Below, piece after piece: positions 3,568 through 10,446 of a stretch of 12,183 bases of DNA. Position numbers and translations under genes: made by a program. Location of the stretch: NCBI GenBank assembly GCA_030671465.1, contig DAOVIP010000011.1:1-12183 (forward strand). The letters run 5' to 3'. This stretch comes from Candidatus Aminicenantota bacterium (GTDB lineage Bacteria; Acidobacteriota; Aminicenantia; UBA2199). The notes under the pieces were generated by a model, which did no database searches, had not been told where the DNA came from, and was given only the letters and a program-made list of their open reading frames with translations. The stretch's first letter is position 1; the number at the start of each line of letters is the position of its first letter.

Positions 3568-6500
3568 ATGAAAAAAACACTATTCACAGTACTATTGTTA
3601 CTCATTTTTGCCGGGTATATCTTTTCCATAGACGATGCCCGGCTGTTAAGAACCCCGGATATTAACGGCAACCTGATTGCATTCGTATACGCCGGTGACA
3701 TCTGGACGGTTCCGGCTACGGGCGGAGATGCCACCCGCCTGACTTCACATGAAGGCCTGGAATTGTTTCCTAAAATATCCCCGGATGGAAAGTGGATTGC
3801 CTTTTCCGGGGAATATTCCGGTTCACGCCAGGTATATGTCATGCCGGCCACCGGGGGAACCCCCAGGCAGTTAACCTATTACAATGACGTGGGGATCATG
3901 CCACCCCGCGGCGGTTACGATTACATTGTCATGGACTGGACCCACGACTCCAGCAAGATCCTGGTCAGGGCCAACCGCACTCCCTTTTTTAAAAGGATGG
4001 GTAAATACTTTCTGGTCAGCCTGAAGGGAGGCCTGGAAACCCCGCTACAGATACCGGAAGTGGGCTTCGGCAGCTTCTCACCCTGCGGCAAAAAGATCGT
4101 CTACACCCCCATATCCAGGGAATTCAGGACCTGGAAACGAATGAAGGGTGGTCGGGCCCAGGATGTATGGACCTATGACCTGGAGAAAGACGAGTCCAAG
4201 AGGATTACCACCTTTACCGGCACCGATCAGCATCCGCTCTGGTACAAAAACAAACTGTATTTTGTATCTGACCGGGATATGAAATTGAATTTCTGGTCTT
4301 ACGATCTGAATACCGGTAAAAAAGAACAGGTAACCCGGCACAGTGAATACGATGTACTATGGCCCTCCGGCCACAATGGTCTGGTGGTCTATGAATACGA
4401 TGCCCATATCTACAAGCTCGATCTGACCAGCGGCAAGACTGATAAAATTACGGTAAATATTCATTTTGACAATCCCAATATACTCCCCTATTTTAAAAAC
4501 GTATCCAAATTCATCTCCCGTTTCGGCGGTGCTCTCACCACAACCGGGAAACGGGCCATCTTTGATGCCCGGGGCGATATTTTTACGGTTCCGGCCAAAA
4601 AGGGTGTGACCGTTAACCTGACCCGCACCCCGGGAGTCCGGGAAATATATCCGGTCACCTCTCCGGACGGAAAATGGATTTCTTACATATCCGATAAGAG
4701 CGGAGACTATGAAATGTACCTGCTGGATCCCAAGACCAAAAAATCCGTCCAGCTGACCCAGGATCACCAGGTATGGAAATATCCGCCGGTCTGGTCACCG
4801 GACAGTAAAAAACTGGTCTTTTCCGATATGAACCGGGAACTCCAAATCCTGGATATCGCCAGCAAGAAAATCACCCGGGTAGACCGGGGCCGTTTTTCTC
4901 AGATCCGTCATTACGACTGGGCACCGGATTCCAAATGGATCACCTACACCAAGGAAATCGACAACAAACTCCAGGCTGTCTGGGTCTATTCACTGGAAAC
5001 GAACCAATCCCACACCCTGAGCAACGGTAAATACAATGACTACGGCGGCGCCTTTTCCCAGGACGGAAAGTATATCTACTTTCTCTCCGACCGGGATTTC
5101 ACCATGGATTTCCGGACCGGCTTTTCCAGCATGGAATTCGACTTTATCTACAACAAATCCATGCGGGCATATGCCATGGCCCTGACCAAAACAGCCCCAA
5201 ACATCTTCAAAGAGGAAAATGATCTGGATGAAACAGCCAAACCCGCTGACCCCCCGGCCAAGGATAAGAAATCCAAAAAGGACAAAGATAAGAAGAAAAA
5301 AGCAGTGGTCGTGAAAATCGATTTCAAGGACATCGGCAACCGGGTCAATGCCTTTCCCATGGGTTCCGGCCGGTACAATATGGTGCTGGATATCGGCGGG
5401 GAAAAGATCCTCTATTCCAAGGACCGGGAACTCCGGATGTACAACCTGAAAGACAAAAAGGATGAACTGATCATCAGTGGAATCCAGTATGGTTCGTTTT
5501 CCGCCGATTACAAAAAACTCCTCTATCGGGCCCAGAACAAATGGGGAATCATCGACATCAAGCCCAAGCAAAAAGTCGGCACCGGTACCCTGAAACTGGA
5601 TGGCCTGACCATGAAAATCGATCCGGTCATCGAGTGGCAGCAGATATACAATGAGGGCTGGCGGATCTACCGCGACTGGTTTTATGTAAAAAACATGCAC
5701 GGCGTGGACTGGCCCAAGATGAAGGAAAAATACGCCAAATGGCTCCCCTACGTCAGCCACCGGGCCGACCTGGACTATATCTTCGGCGAACTGGTCGGTG
5801 AACTGAATGTCGGCCACTGCTATGTGAACTGGGGAGATTTCAAACGGGTAAAACGCATCAACACCGGCTTATTAGGTGCCGAACTCAAAGTTGATCCAGC
5901 TTCCGACCGCTATATCATTTCCAAAATTTTTCAGGGAGAAAACTGGAACAACAACACCCGTTCCCCGCTCACCGAGCAGGGCATCGATGTCCATGTCGGT
6001 GACTACCTGATCGAACTGAACGGCTACGAGGTCACCACCAAAGACAATCCCTACCTTTTCCTGGAAAATACCGCCAATAGCAAAATCACCATCAAGGTCA
6101 ATTCCAAGCCTGAAACCCAGGGGGCCCGGACCTACTGGATCAAGCCCATTTCCAGCGAATTGAACCTGTTCTACATGGACTGGGTGGAAACCCGTAGAAA
6201 GATGGTGGAAAAACTGTCCAAGGGCCGCATCGGTTATATCCATGTGCCCAATACTGCCATCGAGGGCAACCGGGAGCTCTTCAAGGGTCTTTACGCCCAG
6301 AGCCACAAGGAAGCCCTGATCATCGATGAACGCTACAACGGCGGTGGCTGGGATTCCATCAAGATGATCGAAAAATTACTCCGCTCCCCCAAGAGTTACT
6401 GGCATGCCCGGGGACTGGAGCTGAACGTCTCTCCGACCTTCGGACACGACGGCCCCAAGGCCATGCTGATCAACCATTATTCCTCATCAGGAGGGGATGA

Positions 6501-6855
6501 ATTTCCATACAGCTTCCGGAAGACCAAACTGGGAATCCTGATCGGTACCCGTACCTGGGGAGGCCTGGTCGGATACGGCTGGAGCCCTAGCCTGGTGGAC
6601 GGACCCTCTTTTGCCGTGCCCATGTTCGGCATCGTCAGCACCGAAGGCGAATTCGTGGTCGAGGGTGTGGGCGTGTACCCGGACCCGGGATTTGAAGTTT
6701 ATGACCGGCCAGAACTGGTGGCCAAGGGCAAAGATCCCAGTATTGAAGTCGCGGTAAAATACCTGTTGGAACAGATCAACAAGAAACCCCGAAAAAAAAT
6801 CACCAATCCCAAGGATCCGGATCGCTCCAAATGGTTTGAAAAAGAGATCAAATAA
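3568..6855 (+). CDS. Secreted tricorn-like S41 peptidase
   Basis: Tricorn proteases degrade oligopeptides in a beta-propeller-gated chamber. Residues 1-20 form a signal peptide (lysines, then LLLLIFAGYIFS), so this version is exported, unlike the cytosolic archaeal enzyme. Residues about 25-305 and 310-690 carry PD40/TolB-type blades (ISPDGKWIAF, TSPDGKWISY, WSPDSKKLVF), matching the six- and seven-bladed propellers. The C1 part ends with GELNVGHCYV (H750), a PDZ domain spans about 767-855, and the C2 part holds DERYNGGG (920-927), SSSGGDEF (nucleophile S974) and VEGVGVYPD (E1032). These align with archaeal His746, Ser965 and Glu1023; the Ser745 position is Gly749 here. A lysine-rich insert at 565-578 lies within the second propeller. 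Length (1095) fits the family (about 1070). AGGAGG lies 5 bases before the ATG. Its 3' end is 3 bp from the convergent regulator gene. Confidence 0.95.
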   Translation: MKKTLFTVLLLLIFAGYIFSIDDARLLRTPDINGNLIAFVYAGDIWTVPATGGDATRLTSHEGLELFPKISPDGKWIAFSGEYSGSRQVYVMPATGGTPRQLTYYNDVGIMPPRGGYDYIVMDWTHDSSKILVRANRTPFFKRMGKYFLVSLKGGLETPLQIPEVGFGSFSPCGKKIVYTPISREFRTWKRMKGGRAQDVWTYDLEKDESKRITTFTGTDQHPLWYKNKLYFVSDRDMKLNFWSYDLNTGKKEQVTRHSEYDVLWPSGHNGLVVYEYDAHIYKLDLTSGKTDKITVNIHFDNPNILPYFKNVSKFISRFGGALTTTGKRAIFDARGDIFTVPAKKGVTVNLTRTPGVREIYPVTSPDGKWISYISDKSGDYEMYLLDPKTKKSVQLTQDHQVWKYPPVWSPDSKKLVFSDMNRELQILDIASKKITRVDRGRFSQIRHYDWAPDSKWITYTKEIDNKLQAVWVYSLETNQSHTLSNGKYNDYGGAFSQDGKYIYFLSDRDFTMDFRTGFSSMEFDFIYNKSMRAYAMALTKTAPNIFKEENDLDETAKPADPPAKDKKSKKDKDKKKKAVVVKIDFKDIGNRVNAFPMGSGRYNMVLDIGGEKILYSKDRELRMYNLKDKKDELIISGIQYGSFSADYKKLLYRAQNKWGIIDIKPKQKVGTGTLKLDGLTMKIDPVIEWQQIYNEGWRIYRDWFYVKNMHGVDWPKMKEKYAKWLPYVSHRADLDYIFGELVGELNVGHCYVNWGDFKRVKRINTGLLGAELKVDPASDRYIISKIFQGENWNNNTRSPLTEQGIDVHVGDYLIELNGYEVTTKDNPYLFLENTANSKITIKVNSKPETQGARTYWIKPISSELNLFYMDWVETRRKMVEKLSKGRIGYIHVPNTAIEGNRELFKGLYAQSHKEALIIDERYNGGGWDSIKMIEKLLRSPKSYWHARGLELNVSPTFGHDGPKAMLINHYSSSGGDEFPYSFRKTKLGILIGTRTWGGLVGYGWSPSLVDGPSFAVPMFGIVSTEGEFVVEGVGVYPDPGFEVYDRPELVAKGKDPSIEVAVKYLLEQINKKPRKKITNPKDPDRSKWFEKEIK

Positions 6856-6858
6856 TTA

Positions 6859-8214
6859 TCAATCGATAGACCCCGGCCCCTCTTTTTTTATATTAAACTC
6901 CTTTATTTTTCTGTAAAGACTGGGTCGGGACATGCTCAGCAGCTTTGCCGCCCTGGAAATATTGAAGTCGGTTATTTGTAAAACTTTAATGATGTAATTT
7001 TTTTTGTATTCTTCATAGGTTAAAATCCGGTCTTCACCGGTTTTCTCCTGCCTAATGGCCGAATAGGAAAGATCATCCATTTCAATAATATTGTTTTTCG
7101 TGAAGGGGAGAACGCCCTTAATGAAATTTTTAAGTTCCCGGACATTACCGGGCCAGGTGGCATTCAGAAAATAGTATTCAACCTCTTTGCTGATTCCCTC
7201 GATCGCCTTGCCATACAGGGTATTAAACAGACCAATATAATGATGGGTCAGGGGCAGTATATCCTCAATCCGTTCTCTCAGCGGGGGCAGAATAATCATG
7301 GATTCTTTCAGTCGGTAAAAAAGGTCACTTCGAAAATTTTTCAGTTTGACCTCATTTTCAAGATTCTTATTGGTTGAGGCAATCAAACGGATATCGATCT
7401 TCTGGCCCTTTTCACTCTTGAGCCGGTATATCACCTGTTCGTCAAGAACCCTCAACAATTTGGCCTGAATATGCAGAGGCAATTCTCCGATTTCATCCAG
7501 AAACAGGGTTCCCCTGTTGGCCTGAAGGAAGCGCCCGCGGTAATCGGTCGTGGCACCTGAAAAAGCGCCCTTTTCAAATCCGAATAATTCCGACTCAAAC
7601 AATTCACCGGGTATGGATGCACAATTGACCGGCAGGAAAATTTCCTGATTGCGCAGGGAATGGTTGTGAATCGCCTGGGCAAAAACCTCCTTTCCGGTAC
7701 CGGTTTCACCCTGGATCAGAACAATATTATCGGTTCCGGACAGTATTTTTGCCCGCTCGATCATTCTCTCCATCTGATTGCTCCGATAGACAATCTTACC
7801 AAAGGTGAAATTGGAGACCACTTCATTTTTAAAATTTTGATGTTCTTCTACCAACCGGTTCATCTCCATGATCTTCGTGACCTGGGCAAATAGCATTTCG
7901 TTGGATACCGGCTTTTCAAGATAATTGACCGCTCCTTTCTTAATGGCCTCCACAACCGTCGGGATACTGGGATTGCCGGTGATAATAATGGACTTGCCTT
8001 TCAATCGATCGGAATACATGTCAAAAAGCTTGATGGAGTTTCCATCCGGGAGCATCATATCCAGAATGAAGATGTCATATGAATTCAGCTCTATTTTTTT
8101 TACGGCCTCGTCAATGCTGGCGGCCTCATCAACCTGGAATTGCCGGGATTCCAGCTTTAATTTCAACATCTCCCTGATTTCCAGGGTATCTTCCAGTAAT
8201 AAGATTCTGGTCAT
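6859..8214 (-). CDS. NtrC-family sigma-54-dependent response regulator
   Basis: This 451-residue cytoplasmic activator has the full three-domain layout. The receiver domain (1-120) has acidic pocket E8-D9, phospho-acceptor D52, T79 and K101. The AAA+ domain (about 139-370) has Walker A GETGTGKE (169-176), Walker B GTLFLDE (235-241) and candidate arginine fingers in FRSDLFYRL (R295, R301). The C-terminal Fis-type helix-turn-helix is at 419-440 (NISRAAKLLSMSRPSLYRKI). The sigma-54 contact loop reads GAFSGA (216-221) where GAFTGA is usual. The start chosen is the ATG at 8214, with GAGG five bases upstream and the receiver beginning at once (MTRILLLEDT). An upstream TTG at 8271 would add 19 unlikely residues. 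No histidine kinase is adjacent. The target is probably the divergent gene at 8567, which has a sigma-54 promoter. Confidence 0.95.
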   Translation of the reverse strand: MTRILLLEDTLEIREMLKLKLESRQFQVDEAASIDEAVKKIELNSYDIFILDMMLPDGNSIKLFDMYSDRLKGKSIIITGNPSIPTVVEAIKKGAVNYLEKPVSNEMLFAQVTKIMEMNRLVEEHQNFKNEVVSNFTFGKIVYRSNQMERMIERAKILSGTDNIVLIQGETGTGKEVFAQAIHNHSLRNQEIFLPVNCASIPGELFESELFGFEKGAFSGATTDYRGRFLQANRGTLFLDEIGELPLHIQAKLLRVLDEQVIYRLKSEKGQKIDIRLIASTNKNLENEVKLKNFRSDLFYRLKESMIILPPLRERIEDILPLTHHYIGLFNTLYGKAIEGISKEVEYYFLNATWPGNVRELKNFIKGVLPFTKNNIIEMDDLSYSAIRQEKTGEDRILTYEEYKKNYIIKVLQITDFNISRAAKLLSMSRPSLYRKIKEFNIKKEGPGSID

Positions 8215-8280
8215 CCCGGCCTCAGGTTCATTATACAGATAAAACAAAAAAAGGCAAATTTTCAGGGTCAATTTTAAAAA

Positions 8281-8303
8281 AAATGTAAAAATTTGTTACA
8301 CAT
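8281..8303. promoter_or_regulatory. Candidate enhancer site A for the NtrC-type regulator
   Basis: An imperfect dyad with left arm AAATGTAA, a 7-bp spacer and right arm TTACACAT. It matches site B at 14 of the 16 arm positions and lies 33 bp from it, measured arm to arm. It is about 230 bp upstream of the predicted sigma-54 start, a normal distance for an enhancer. Confidence 0.6.
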
Positions 8304-8313
8304 GCTCCGGAGA

Positions 8314-8336
8314 ATGTGTAAAATTATATTACACAT
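8314..8336. promoter_or_regulatory. Candidate enhancer site B for the NtrC-type regulator
   Basis: A perfect dyad, ATGTGTAA-N7-TTACACAT, 33 bp (about three helical turns) from site A, so both would lie on nearly the same DNA face. The bases between the sites contain CTCCGGAG (8305-8312). With the flanking TTACACAT (8296-8303) and ATGTGTAA (8314-8321) this makes a second overlapping dyad centred at 8308.5. An ATTACA-N2-TGTAAT dyad (8328-8341) overlaps the right arm. Tandem dyads of this kind are what a dimeric Fis-type helix-turn-helix regulator binds. Confidence 0.65.
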
Positions 8337-8504
8337 GTAATTTTTCCTGATACCTGCAATATATAAGGATTTTTTGGCAGATATTTTTTTTCGGACATGA
8401 AAAAGCCGATGATGTTTCAAAAATTTACAGTCTGAATTTCAACCAAAAACCTGAAATCCGCCGAAACCCTCATTGGTAAACGATTTCCGGAATTGACATC
8501 AATA

Positions 8505-8520
8505 TGGCATCATTTTTGCT
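8505..8520 (+). promoter_or_regulatory. Sigma-54 (-24/-12) promoter
   Basis: TGGCAT-CATTT-TTGCT fits the sigma-54 consensus TGGCAC-N5-TTGCW at all but one specified position. The invariant GG (8506-8507) and GC (8518-8519) have the required spacing. Transcription should start near 8531, giving a leader of about 36 bases before the ATG at 8567. A sigma-54 activator gene is encoded immediately upstream in the opposite direction. Confidence 0.85.
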
Positions 8521-8566
8521 TCAGGTATGATGGAATGAGGTTAAATGTAATGAAAAGGGGGATAAA

Positions 8567-9751
8567 ATGATTCACAAGAAAAAGGGGAGAAAGATTTTAT
8601 TTATGGTTGGTTTTTTACTTTCCGCCACTTCACTGGTTTTTTCTTTCGGCTTTGATTTCGGACTGGGAATCCAGCCAACCAGTGACAATGGTTTTGTGTT
8701 TGTCGGTTTTACCGATTCCCATTCTTATGGAAAATACGATTTCATGATTTACAAACTGAATGAGAACGGGGATATGATATGGTCTACAAATCTGGGAGGC
8801 AACAATAATGATATTGCCTTCTCGGTTCAGCAAACCTCTGACGGTGGTTTTATCGTGGCCGGGCTGACCGAATCATTCACCAATGGCAAATCAGATTTTC
8901 TGGTTTATAAATTGAGTGCCACCGGTGAAATACTCTGGCGAAAGAACTACGGGGGAAGCAACGATGATTTTGCCATCTCCATCAAGGAAAAACCCTGGGG
9001 AGGCTATATCGTTGCCGGGAGTTCATTCTCTTATAGCAATGGCAAATCGGACTTTCTGGTTTACAGCCTGGATGACCAGGGTAATGTCGGATGGTTCAAC
9101 CACTATGGCGGCCCGGAGCAGGAGCAGGCCTGTTCAATTCTGATTACATCCGACGGCTACATCCTGGCCGGAACTTCCAGCTCCTATACCAATGGCTCAC
9201 ATGATTTTCTGGTCTACAAACTCAGCCCCCGGGGATCTATTGTCTGGCGTAAAAACTACGGGGGATCCGGATGGGAGGAGGCATCTTCCATTCAGCAAAC
9301 TTCGGATAATGGATATATTCTCCTGGGGTCCACCAGATCATTCATCCCCGGTAAAACCCAGTATCTGGTTTACAAAACCAATTCGACCGGTGATATCCTT
9401 TGGAGCAAGAATCTTGGTTGCACCCAGGGTGGTGAATCCTTCGGAACTTCGGTTTTGGAGACAGATAACGGATATGTATTGGCCGGTAATGCCTTCCATC
9501 CCCAAAATCCCATTGATCAATTTTTTGTGCTTTTTAATCTGGATACCCAGGGAAATATAAGATGGGAACGCATGTACGGGGGCGATTTGTGGGATGAAAC
9601 CAATACCCTCTGTCAGACCAACGACGGCAATATCGTCATCGCCGGTGCATCATTTTCCTACAGCAATTCTTTCGGCATGCCGGATTTTCTGATGTACAAG
9701 GTGACAGGAACCACAGGAGATGAAATTTATAGAAAAAATTTTGGTGAATAA
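8567..9751 (+). CDS. Secreted seven-repeat beta-propeller-like protein
   Basis: The first 26 residues form a signal peptide (MIHKKKGRKI, then a hydrophobic core ending LVFS), so the protein is exported. The rest is seven repeats of about 52 residues (roughly 29-78, 79-130, 131-182, 183-233, 234-285, 286-339 and 340-394). Each has the pattern TSDGGFIVAG, a variable loop with NGKSDF, LVYKL, then GDILWRKNYGG. The sheet-forming strands and the Trp/Gly positions resemble the PQQ/Kelch-like repeats of surface propellers, and seven repeats suit a closed seven-bladed propeller. There is no catalytic motif and no recognisable C-terminal sorting signal; the protein ends NFGE. A GGGG ribosome binding site sits 6-7 bases before the ATG. 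It is probably activated from the sigma-54 promoter by the divergent NtrC-type regulator. Binding of a ligand or surface partner is a guess; the function is unknown. Confidence 0.9.
   Translation: MIHKKKGRKILFMVGFLLSATSLVFSFGFDFGLGIQPTSDNGFVFVGFTDSHSYGKYDFMIYKLNENGDMIWSTNLGGNNNDIAFSVQQTSDGGFIVAGLTESFTNGKSDFLVYKLSATGEILWRKNYGGSNDDFAISIKEKPWGGYIVAGSSFSYSNGKSDFLVYSLDDQGNVGWFNHYGGPEQEQACSILITSDGYILAGTSSSYTNGSHDFLVYKLSPRGSIVWRKNYGGSGWEEASSIQQTSDNGYILLGSTRSFIPGKTQYLVYKTNSTGDILWSKNLGCTQGGESFGTSVLETDNGYVLAGNAFHPQNPIDQFFVLFNLDTQGNIRWERMYGGDLWDETNTLCQTNDGNIVIAGASFSYSNSFGMPDFLMYKVTGTTGDEIYRKNFGE
8651..9748 (+). repeat. Seven tandem 150-165 bp coding repeats
   Basis: The propeller gene is built from seven tandem units visible in the DNA as well as the protein. 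For example, an AATGGC-AAATC-GA-TTTCTGGTTTA block recurs near 8881, 9041 and (diverged) 9192, and AACTACGGGGG recurs near 8945 and 9253. Units 2 to 5 are the most alike; units 1, 6 and 7 have diverged. This suggests growth by internal duplication. Confidence 0.8.
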
Positions 9752-9791
9752 TTTCAGTCAGAGCCCAGAGCTCCCTCTTTAAATAAAAACG

Positions 9792-9841
9792 AAAAAGGGC
9801 CTCATCGATAATTGGTTTCACATCGATGATGGCCCTTTTTT
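9792..9841. terminator. Bidirectional rho-independent terminator
   Basis: A long stem pairs AAAAAGGGCC plus TCATCGAT (9792-9809) with ATCGATGA plus GGCCCTTTTT (9822-9841), with one bulged base and a 12-base loop. It is flanked by an A-run on the left and a T-run on the right, so it can end transcripts from both sides. It serves the propeller gene (stop at 9751) and the PagL-like gene (stop at 9844), which converge on it. Confidence 0.92.
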
Positions 9842-9843
9842 TA

Positions 9844-10446
9844 TTACCAACAATAACCGAAACGAAAGCCGAGTACATCCAGTCCCTGGTTGTACTCGGC
9901 CGTATACCCGTTGGACATGTGAGAAAACATCAGGGATACCCGGCAGCGGATTGACAGCCGGTATCCCACCTCGACCGGAATCCGGAACAACACCCGGCGG
10001 CCCAACAGTTTCCGCCCGGGCACAAAGGTATTGAGTTCACCGTCATGGATGGCTACCCCCAGTCCCAGATCCAGGAACAGGCCCTGCCGGGTTTGCCACT
10101 CCCATAAAAAACCGGCATACAGCTTGCTGGTATAGCCCCGGGAATTGACGGTTACCCCCAGGTTGGGGCGTATAATACCGGAAAGCAAACAGAGTGAGGG
10201 CTTAAAAAACACCAGCTCCAGGTTGAAATCAACCCCCCCCTCCAGGTGCAAATTGCTCCACAGGTGGTCCACATCGTGGGCTAATATTCCGGTCCGGATC
10301 TCACCGAACCATTTTTTCTCCGGCGGATTCTGACTTTCAGCTGCCAGCCCCCGACTCTGAACAGAAATCCCCATCAGAACCAGCAGCAGAACCCATATCC
10401 ACCCGGACAGAGTCAAGGAGGAATATTTGTTAAGAAACATCAACAT
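9844..10446 (-). CDS. PagL-like lipid A 3-O-deacylase (acyloxyacyl hydrolase family)
   Basis: PagL enzymes are small outer-membrane beta-barrels that remove the 3-O acyl chain from lipid A. This 200-residue protein has a hydrophobic export segment (about 13-31) and alternating barrel strands. It carries the family's C-terminal signature: HMSNG (H176, S178) followed by NQG and D190, ending in an aromatic residue (GYCW). The catalytic triad known in PagL is His-Ser-Glu, and the Glu position appears to be Asp190 here. The first ATG overlaps the stop of lnt by one base (TAATG), which suggests translational coupling. GGAG is only 3 bases from that ATG and 9 bases from the next in-frame one (codon 3, at 10440), so the second may be the true start. 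The terminator follows directly. The pairing with lnt fits an envelope-lipid operon. Family confidence is good; activity is inferred. Confidence 0.85.
   Translation of the reverse strand: MLMFLNKYSSLTLSGWIWVLLLVLMGISVQSRGLAAESQNPPEKKWFGEIRTGILAHDVDHLWSNLHLEGGVDFNLELVFFKPSLCLLSGIIRPNLGVTVNSRGYTSKLYAGFLWEWQTRQGLFLDLGLGVAIHDGELNTFVPGRKLLGRRVLFRIPVEVGYRLSIRCRVSLMFSHMSNGYTAEYNQGLDVLGFRFGYCW

Follow-up and report, generated by a model that had tools for sequence, protein, structure and literature searches.

We consider it likely, judging from the sequence, that an NtrC-type regulator, tandem dyads and a -24/-12 sigma-54 promoter form a phosphorylation-controlled switch for a single gene encoding a probably exported propeller protein. 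These four parts, as listed in the initial annotation, are all present in the window (the whole analysed stretch of 12,183 nucleotides). In sequence terms, the switch is real and of an established type; what seems to be new here is an operator whose spacing recurs, together with an apparently exchangeable output. The operator type and partly its spacing recur near orthologous regulators in related genomes, and the source genome encodes sigma-54. Thus, the proposed chain of regulator, operator, promoter and gene holds up and no longer depends on the general logic of sigma-54 activation alone.

Regulator, operators and promoter in the window

The window is contig C488 of the source draft genome (2.41 Mb in 521 contigs, 88% complete), and its relevant features are collected in Table 1. 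The regulator and propeller genes are divergent across an intergenic gap of 352 bp. Response_reg, Sigma54_activat, AAA_lid_14 and HTH_8 domains were each found in the regulator above the Pfam cut-off, and the receiver residues for phosphorylation (E8/D9, D52, T79 and K101) are all conserved. The regulator start is the ATG at 8214, and a 470-aa version of the ORF begins at a TTG further upstream. The GAFTGA loop is GAFSGA in the window regulator, as also in P0121 (93% identical, encoded on a 3143-base contig) and G008_C120, and GAFTGA in most aligned rows of the clade; this departure from the usual form counts against an active regulator, although the T-to-S change may be tolerated. The regulator scored below every NCBIfam equivalog cut-off, the best being the PEP-CTERM regulator (344.8 bits vs 502.6). 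Its relatives P0167, P0179 and P0195, whose source label is Candidatus Aminicenantes, are 57-60% identical. In a scan of named genomes, none of the regulators (80 of 90 kept) exceeded 46% identity in its best segment. On its other side, a Tricorn-protease-like gene (3568-6855) stops a few bases from the end of the convergent regulator gene.

Table 1. Features of the propeller locus, with positions in the window.
Feature	Positions	Strand	Basis
NtrC-type response regulator, sigma-54 activator, 451 aa including stop codon	6859..8214	-	Pfam domains; clade support 97/96
Dyad 1, TGTAAAAATTTGTTACA, probable activator site	8284..8300		exact pattern; G011-matrix rank 1 (21.6); end 204 bp before -24
Dyad 2, TGTAAAATTATATTACA, probable activator site	8317..8333		exact pattern; G011-matrix rank 2 (20.0); end 171 bp before -24
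Weak dyad 3, TGTTTCAAAAATTTACA, possible proximal site	8413..8429		2 mismatches; G011-matrix rank 3 (5.7); end 75 bp before -24
-24/-12 sigma-54 promoter, TGGCATCATTTTTGCT, predicted start 8531	8505..8520	+	exact TGGCAYN5TTGCW match
Purine-rich ribosome-binding site, AAGGGGG	8555..8561	+	read from sequence
Seven-bladed propeller protein, 394 aa, probably exported, DUF5122 / delta-60-like repeats	8567..9751	+	PF17164; repeats; AlphaFold2
Strong hairpin with A and T runs, probable terminator common to the convergent PagL-like gene	9791..9841		-26.9 kcal/mol, z -6.3

The tandem repeat at 8284-8304 and 8317-8337 consists of two exact TGTAA-N7-TTACA dyads, 33 bp apart. Under a dyad matrix built from 24 sites at the examined promoters of the family genome G011, the sites at 8284, 8317 and 8413 are the top three of the whole 12-kb window. 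When 8215-8566 was dinucleotide-shuffled 20,000 times, 20 of the products carried one or more exact dyads and none carried two, though these are not blind probabilities, since the pattern was chosen after comparing the window with G011 and the exact pair is therefore not a blind test. Moreover, two sites scoring at least 20 were never seen in 5000 shuffles of 8215-8504. The position of the third site comes closer to a blind test: a site matching dyad 3 in quality at 70-80 bp occurred in 14 of the 5000 shuffles. The distances of dyads 2 and 3 from -24 match G011 spacings, and the 204-bp distance and the 33-bp pair spacing differ from the G011 layout.

Only two exact dyads occur in the source genome (control 2), both in the window, and 41 dyads with up to one mismatch compare with 61 in the control; with no enrichment at this level, there is no second dyad cluster. 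The other nine exact sigma-54 promoters of this genome have no dyad (up to one mismatch) within 400 bp, with only 138 bp upstream at one of them (L216), so the operator-promoter unit is found once within the draft. The single dedicated output claimed in the initial annotation is thus plausible as a one-gene regulon, to the extent that the only exact dyads of the draft sit here. An earlier reading of the operator as TTACACAT-N10-ATGTGTAA was rejected, the source genome giving six matches against five in the control at up to three mismatches, of which only the window copy was exact.

With the stricter TGGCAC form of the promoter and up to two mismatches, five matches were found in the window, as expected by chance (mean 5.12), and the 8505 site is the sole one with a single mismatch. 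Taking C8519 as -12 gives the same start, 8531, as had been predicted before. The ribosome-binding site and the ATG of the propeller gene span 8555-8569. The hairpin behind the gene, which the scan for consensus terminators did not list, probably terminates the transcript, so that a single-gene transcript is likely. The convergent PagL-like lipid A deacylase gene (9844-10446) adjoins an apolipoprotein N-acyltransferase gene. Elsewhere in the source genome, exact promoters (ten in all, L213-L222) were seen before pilin-like prepilin ORFs (L217) and before an efflux-type membrane-fusion-like ORF (L215), both named by eye, and before two paralogous ORFs of about 490 aa (L213 and L220), also read by eye.

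The propeller protein

The propeller protein contains seven repeats in sequence and scored 33.6 bits against PF17164 (DUF5122), above the gathering cut-off of 27, and 62.8 bits against the delta-60 repeat TIGR02608, under the curated cut-off of 76.5. Its AlphaFold2 model, made from 36 sequences, has a mean pLDDT of 93.2 and 28 strands, namely seven times four. The N-terminus is lysine-rich and then hydrophobic when read by eye, and on this reading the protein is probably exported. Relatives are numerous (5633 at E <= 0.001 among 7994 scored). The best solved fold is CylK (TMq 0.82, E 2.0e-19), which is also the best match by profile (E 1.7e-32). Tetrathionate hydrolase, at 0.46-0.52, and PLL lectins, at about 0.65, match the fold less well than CylK, as do BamB and B12-binding surface lipoproteins. 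From the predicted fold, we would guess that the protein may have a role in binding or adhesion outside the cytoplasm.

Operator layout and outputs in related genomes

In a tree of 30 regulators, the window regulator falls in a clade of 15 rows (support 97/96), and so do seven loci from genomes of the family (G011_C937, G004_C170, G014_C296, G014_C531, G018_C206 and the partial G008_C120 and G021_C670). Operators and an exact sigma-54 promoter lie beside the regulator or kinase at four of the seven (G011, G014_C531, G018 and G021). A Reg_prop-type gene is located upstream of the regulator at five of the seven; kinase domains were detected by Pfam in all four of these genes tested, and the G008 one was judged from its ORF. 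None of the eight window genes tested with Pfam has a kinase domain, and the proposed description of the locus as self-contained is not supported. A Reg_prop hybrid kinase, truncated by the contig start, is encoded on C414 of the source genome.

The genes next to these operators vary. In G011, the regulator has dyads and an exact promoter divergent from it, and this promoter is followed by a single gene for a DUF7948 + SBBP propeller protein, which is a propeller of a different kind, so that the exact pair of the window is not present. At G014_C531, an exact promoter that points away from the kinase-regulator pair has sites 71, 161 and 250 bp before it and leads to ORFs of 34 and 48 aa, the former just over a short bacteriocin-signal model (17.7 bits, cut-off 15.7) and the latter without match. 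G018 and G021 each have three TGTATC-type dyads with lower G011-matrix scores (6.1-10.6), flanked on both sides by exact promoters, one of them toward the kinase-regulator genes. On one side in G018, two peptides score above the cut-off of 22 for the class I lanthipeptide leader (30.2 and 38.7 bits), and on the other a 59-aa peptide just below it (21.6) precedes the kinase. The small ORF tested in G021 had no family match, and its rightward promoter has no good proximal site. At G004_C170, there is a lanthionine-synthetase-C-like gene, and 1.8 kb away a TGTAAA-type triplet occurs with a one-mismatch promoter. No operator was found within the 593-bp flank at hand for G014_C296, and the G008_C120 contig begins inside the upstream gene. 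Thus, the output near the orthologous regulator is an SBBP propeller for G011, whereas G018 has class I lanthipeptides and G014 and G021 have other small ORFs.

The conserved regulator-propeller pair expected from the initial annotation did not appear: DUF5122 matched on none of the contigs of the seven orthologous loci as far as these reach, several ending near the regulator. Propeller matches (E <= 1e-3) were found in 22 of 60 relatives, and none in G001, the sole same-genus genome among the 60 (70% complete). On contig C64 of G001 (L163), a sister-clade regulator is accompanied by three TGTATC-type dyads at intervals of about 77 bp, of which one is strong (14.8) and two are weak, and by a one-mismatch sigma-54 site pointing away from the regulator. 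Two further places were not counted, namely a dyad and promoter in G001:C92, which are upstream of an unrelated response regulator, and a repeat-protein ORF 1.3 kb from the sister-clade regulator in G008:C824, with no operator or sigma-54 site nearby.

Exact dyads, with control counts in parentheses, number 25 (9) in G011, 38 (7) in G004, 13 (7) in G021, 10 (8) in G014, 8 (6) in G018, 2 (4) in G008 and 3 (0) in G001, so that enrichment is clear in G011 and G004 only; G008, G014 and G018 show no clear enrichment despite their clade regulators. The strict form TGTAAC-N5-GTTACA accounts for 12 of the 25 in G011. There, dyad ends lie 73-78 bp before -24 in nine of 11 promoters, 163-174 bp in five and 241-275 bp in ten, within a selected set covering 10 of the 18 exact-dyad contigs, which were picked by motif form and clustering. 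These promoters comprise nine exact ones, one with one mismatch and one with two, and dyads were allowed up to two mismatches. A joint pattern of dyad, 62-92 bp and promoter occurs at 11 places in five of 34 family genomes and at none for the reversed control. The source genome has no match to it, because its proximal site is degenerate. The G015 match is a TGTAAA-type triplet, and the best regulator match of G015 is only 43% identical, so related motifs occur in genomes with regulators of another clade, and the motif is not specific to the clade of the window regulator.

With regard to wider target sets, DUF7948 gave 50 matches in seven of eight genomes and none in the source genome. We examined 40 of them, the 10 left out being all partial and three of the 30 non-G011 ones having less than 900 bp upstream. 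Dyads (up to one mismatch) were present at five of 10 DUF7948 genes in G011 vs one of 30 elsewhere. DUF7948 was therefore rejected as a general target, this set of targets being peculiar to G011. The sole case outside G011 is a poor dyad in G005, 22 bp from a one-mismatch promoter, at one of four DUF7948 genes examined there; G005 belongs to the genus of G011 and lacks a clade regulator (best match 37%). Elsewhere in G011, two PKD-domain proteins are encoded after further dyad-promoter units, in one case in third position. At G011:C403 (L204), there are two dyad triplets, each with an exact promoter toward small ORFs, including a 62-aa ORF without family match; the Reg_prop histidine kinase gene of this contig is not claimed as a target, as both promoters point away from it. 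In G004, TGTAAA-N5-TTTACA-type triplets precede sigma-54-like promoters at 12 places (L156, L168 and L194-L202) by about 72-89, 155-178 and 227-256 bp. The adjoining genes include a lanthionine-synthetase-C-like one as well as large ORFs that look NRPS-like and radical-SAM-like from their sequence. This set looks like a secondary-metabolism regulon.

Proposed mechanism, alternatives and known systems

We infer the binding, the activation, the kinase and the role of the protein as follows. A histidine kinase encoded elsewhere would phosphorylate the regulator, an oligomer of which would bind the two strong dyads (8284-8333) and might also occupy the weak 8413 site. It would then contact sigma-54 RNA polymerase at 8505-8520 via DNA looping, and the single propeller gene would be switched on from about 8531. 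The exported seven-bladed product may act in binding or adhesion outside the cytoplasm.

The same control DNA could be read otherwise. The dyads may mainly control the regulator's own gene, leaving the propeller promoter to another sigma-54 activator: the strong dyads are nearer to the regulator start codon (70-119 bp upstream) than to -24 (171-204 bp), the source genome has 14 activator-domain matches (the weakest four probably other AAA proteins), and the promoters toward the kinase-regulator genes in G018 and G021 fit such a control. However, the 8505 site (+) is the only sigma-54 site, exact or with one mismatch, in 8200-8600, and none points toward the regulator. In addition, the weak third dyad lies 75 bp before -24 as in G011, and the adjoining promoters of G011 and G014_C531 point away from the regulator, so we regard self-control as the main function of the dyads as unlikely. 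It is very unlikely that the -24/-12 match is fortuitous and the gene is transcribed from a sigma-70 promoter. Although a 9-of-12 sigma-70-like match (8504-8531, +) overlaps the site, such matches were not clearly over chance in the scan (6 vs a shuffle mean of 3.8), whereas exact TGGCAYN5TTGCW sites number ten in the source genome against none for the reversed pattern, arose on either strand in only 11 of 20,000 dinucleotide shuffles of 8215-8566, and stand at four orthologous loci as well.

As for the output, the first rank of CylK by both fold and profile might suggest a CylK-related alkylating enzyme in place of a binding protein. CylK catalysis, however, requires Arg105 of the N-terminal calcium-binding domain and Tyr473, located at the domain interface (PMC8916777), and the window protein aligns to CylK chains only from residue 244 or 252, so that the Arg105 domain is absent. 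Weaker matches to the propeller also come from binding-type proteins, namely PLL-type lectins, BamB and the surface lipoproteins that bind B12. An alkylating activity is hence scarcely to be expected, and a switch for a single, probably exported propeller, possibly a binding protein, is the reading that we retain.

Beyond the window, we tentatively raise the possibility, with considerable doubt, of a lineage cassette that keeps its control DNA and swaps its output between lanthipeptide-like peptides and exported propellers, with a one-gene regulon in the window species. This cassette would consist of a Reg_prop-type sensor kinase, an NtrC-type regulator and sets of TGTAWC-type dyads whose distances from a sigma-54 promoter are nearly constant. 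If so, peptides and propellers may serve the same kind of surface interaction. Through the operator, functionally uncharacterized exported repeat proteins, and lanthipeptide-like peptides in relatives, are linked to one regulator clade and probably also to propeller-type sensor kinases. The operator provides a searchable handle on sigma-54 targets in a lineage represented largely by draft genomes, and with one regulator and one target the window locus would be the simplest test case.

Compared with known systems, the window protein shares its repeat sequence and predicted seven-bladed fold with delta-60 / DUF5122 and SBBP propeller proteins but is propeller only, with nothing past the last repeat; with CylK it shares the seven-bladed fold but not the calcium-binding domain. 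Like NtrC/AtoC/GlrR-type activators, the regulator has a receiver, an AAA+ sigma-54 domain and a Fis-type HTH, with 17-bp dyads 5' of a -24/-12 promoter. It differs in that the window has no kinase gene and no NCBIfam equivalog is reached, and the dyad TGTAA-N7-TTACA differs from the NtrC site, TGCACC-N5-GGTGCA. We found no description of this operator layout in the open-licence literature searched. The output had also been called unusual, which is partly right: sigma-54 is described as a controller of the bacterial exterior, including polysaccharides, flagella, LPS, lipoproteins and peptidoglycan, as a general theme, and repeat propellers and lanthipeptides are not among the outputs named in the available part of that paper (PMC3162934). 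A probably exported protein under a sigma-54 promoter beside an activator gene is consistent with this theme (PMC3162934).
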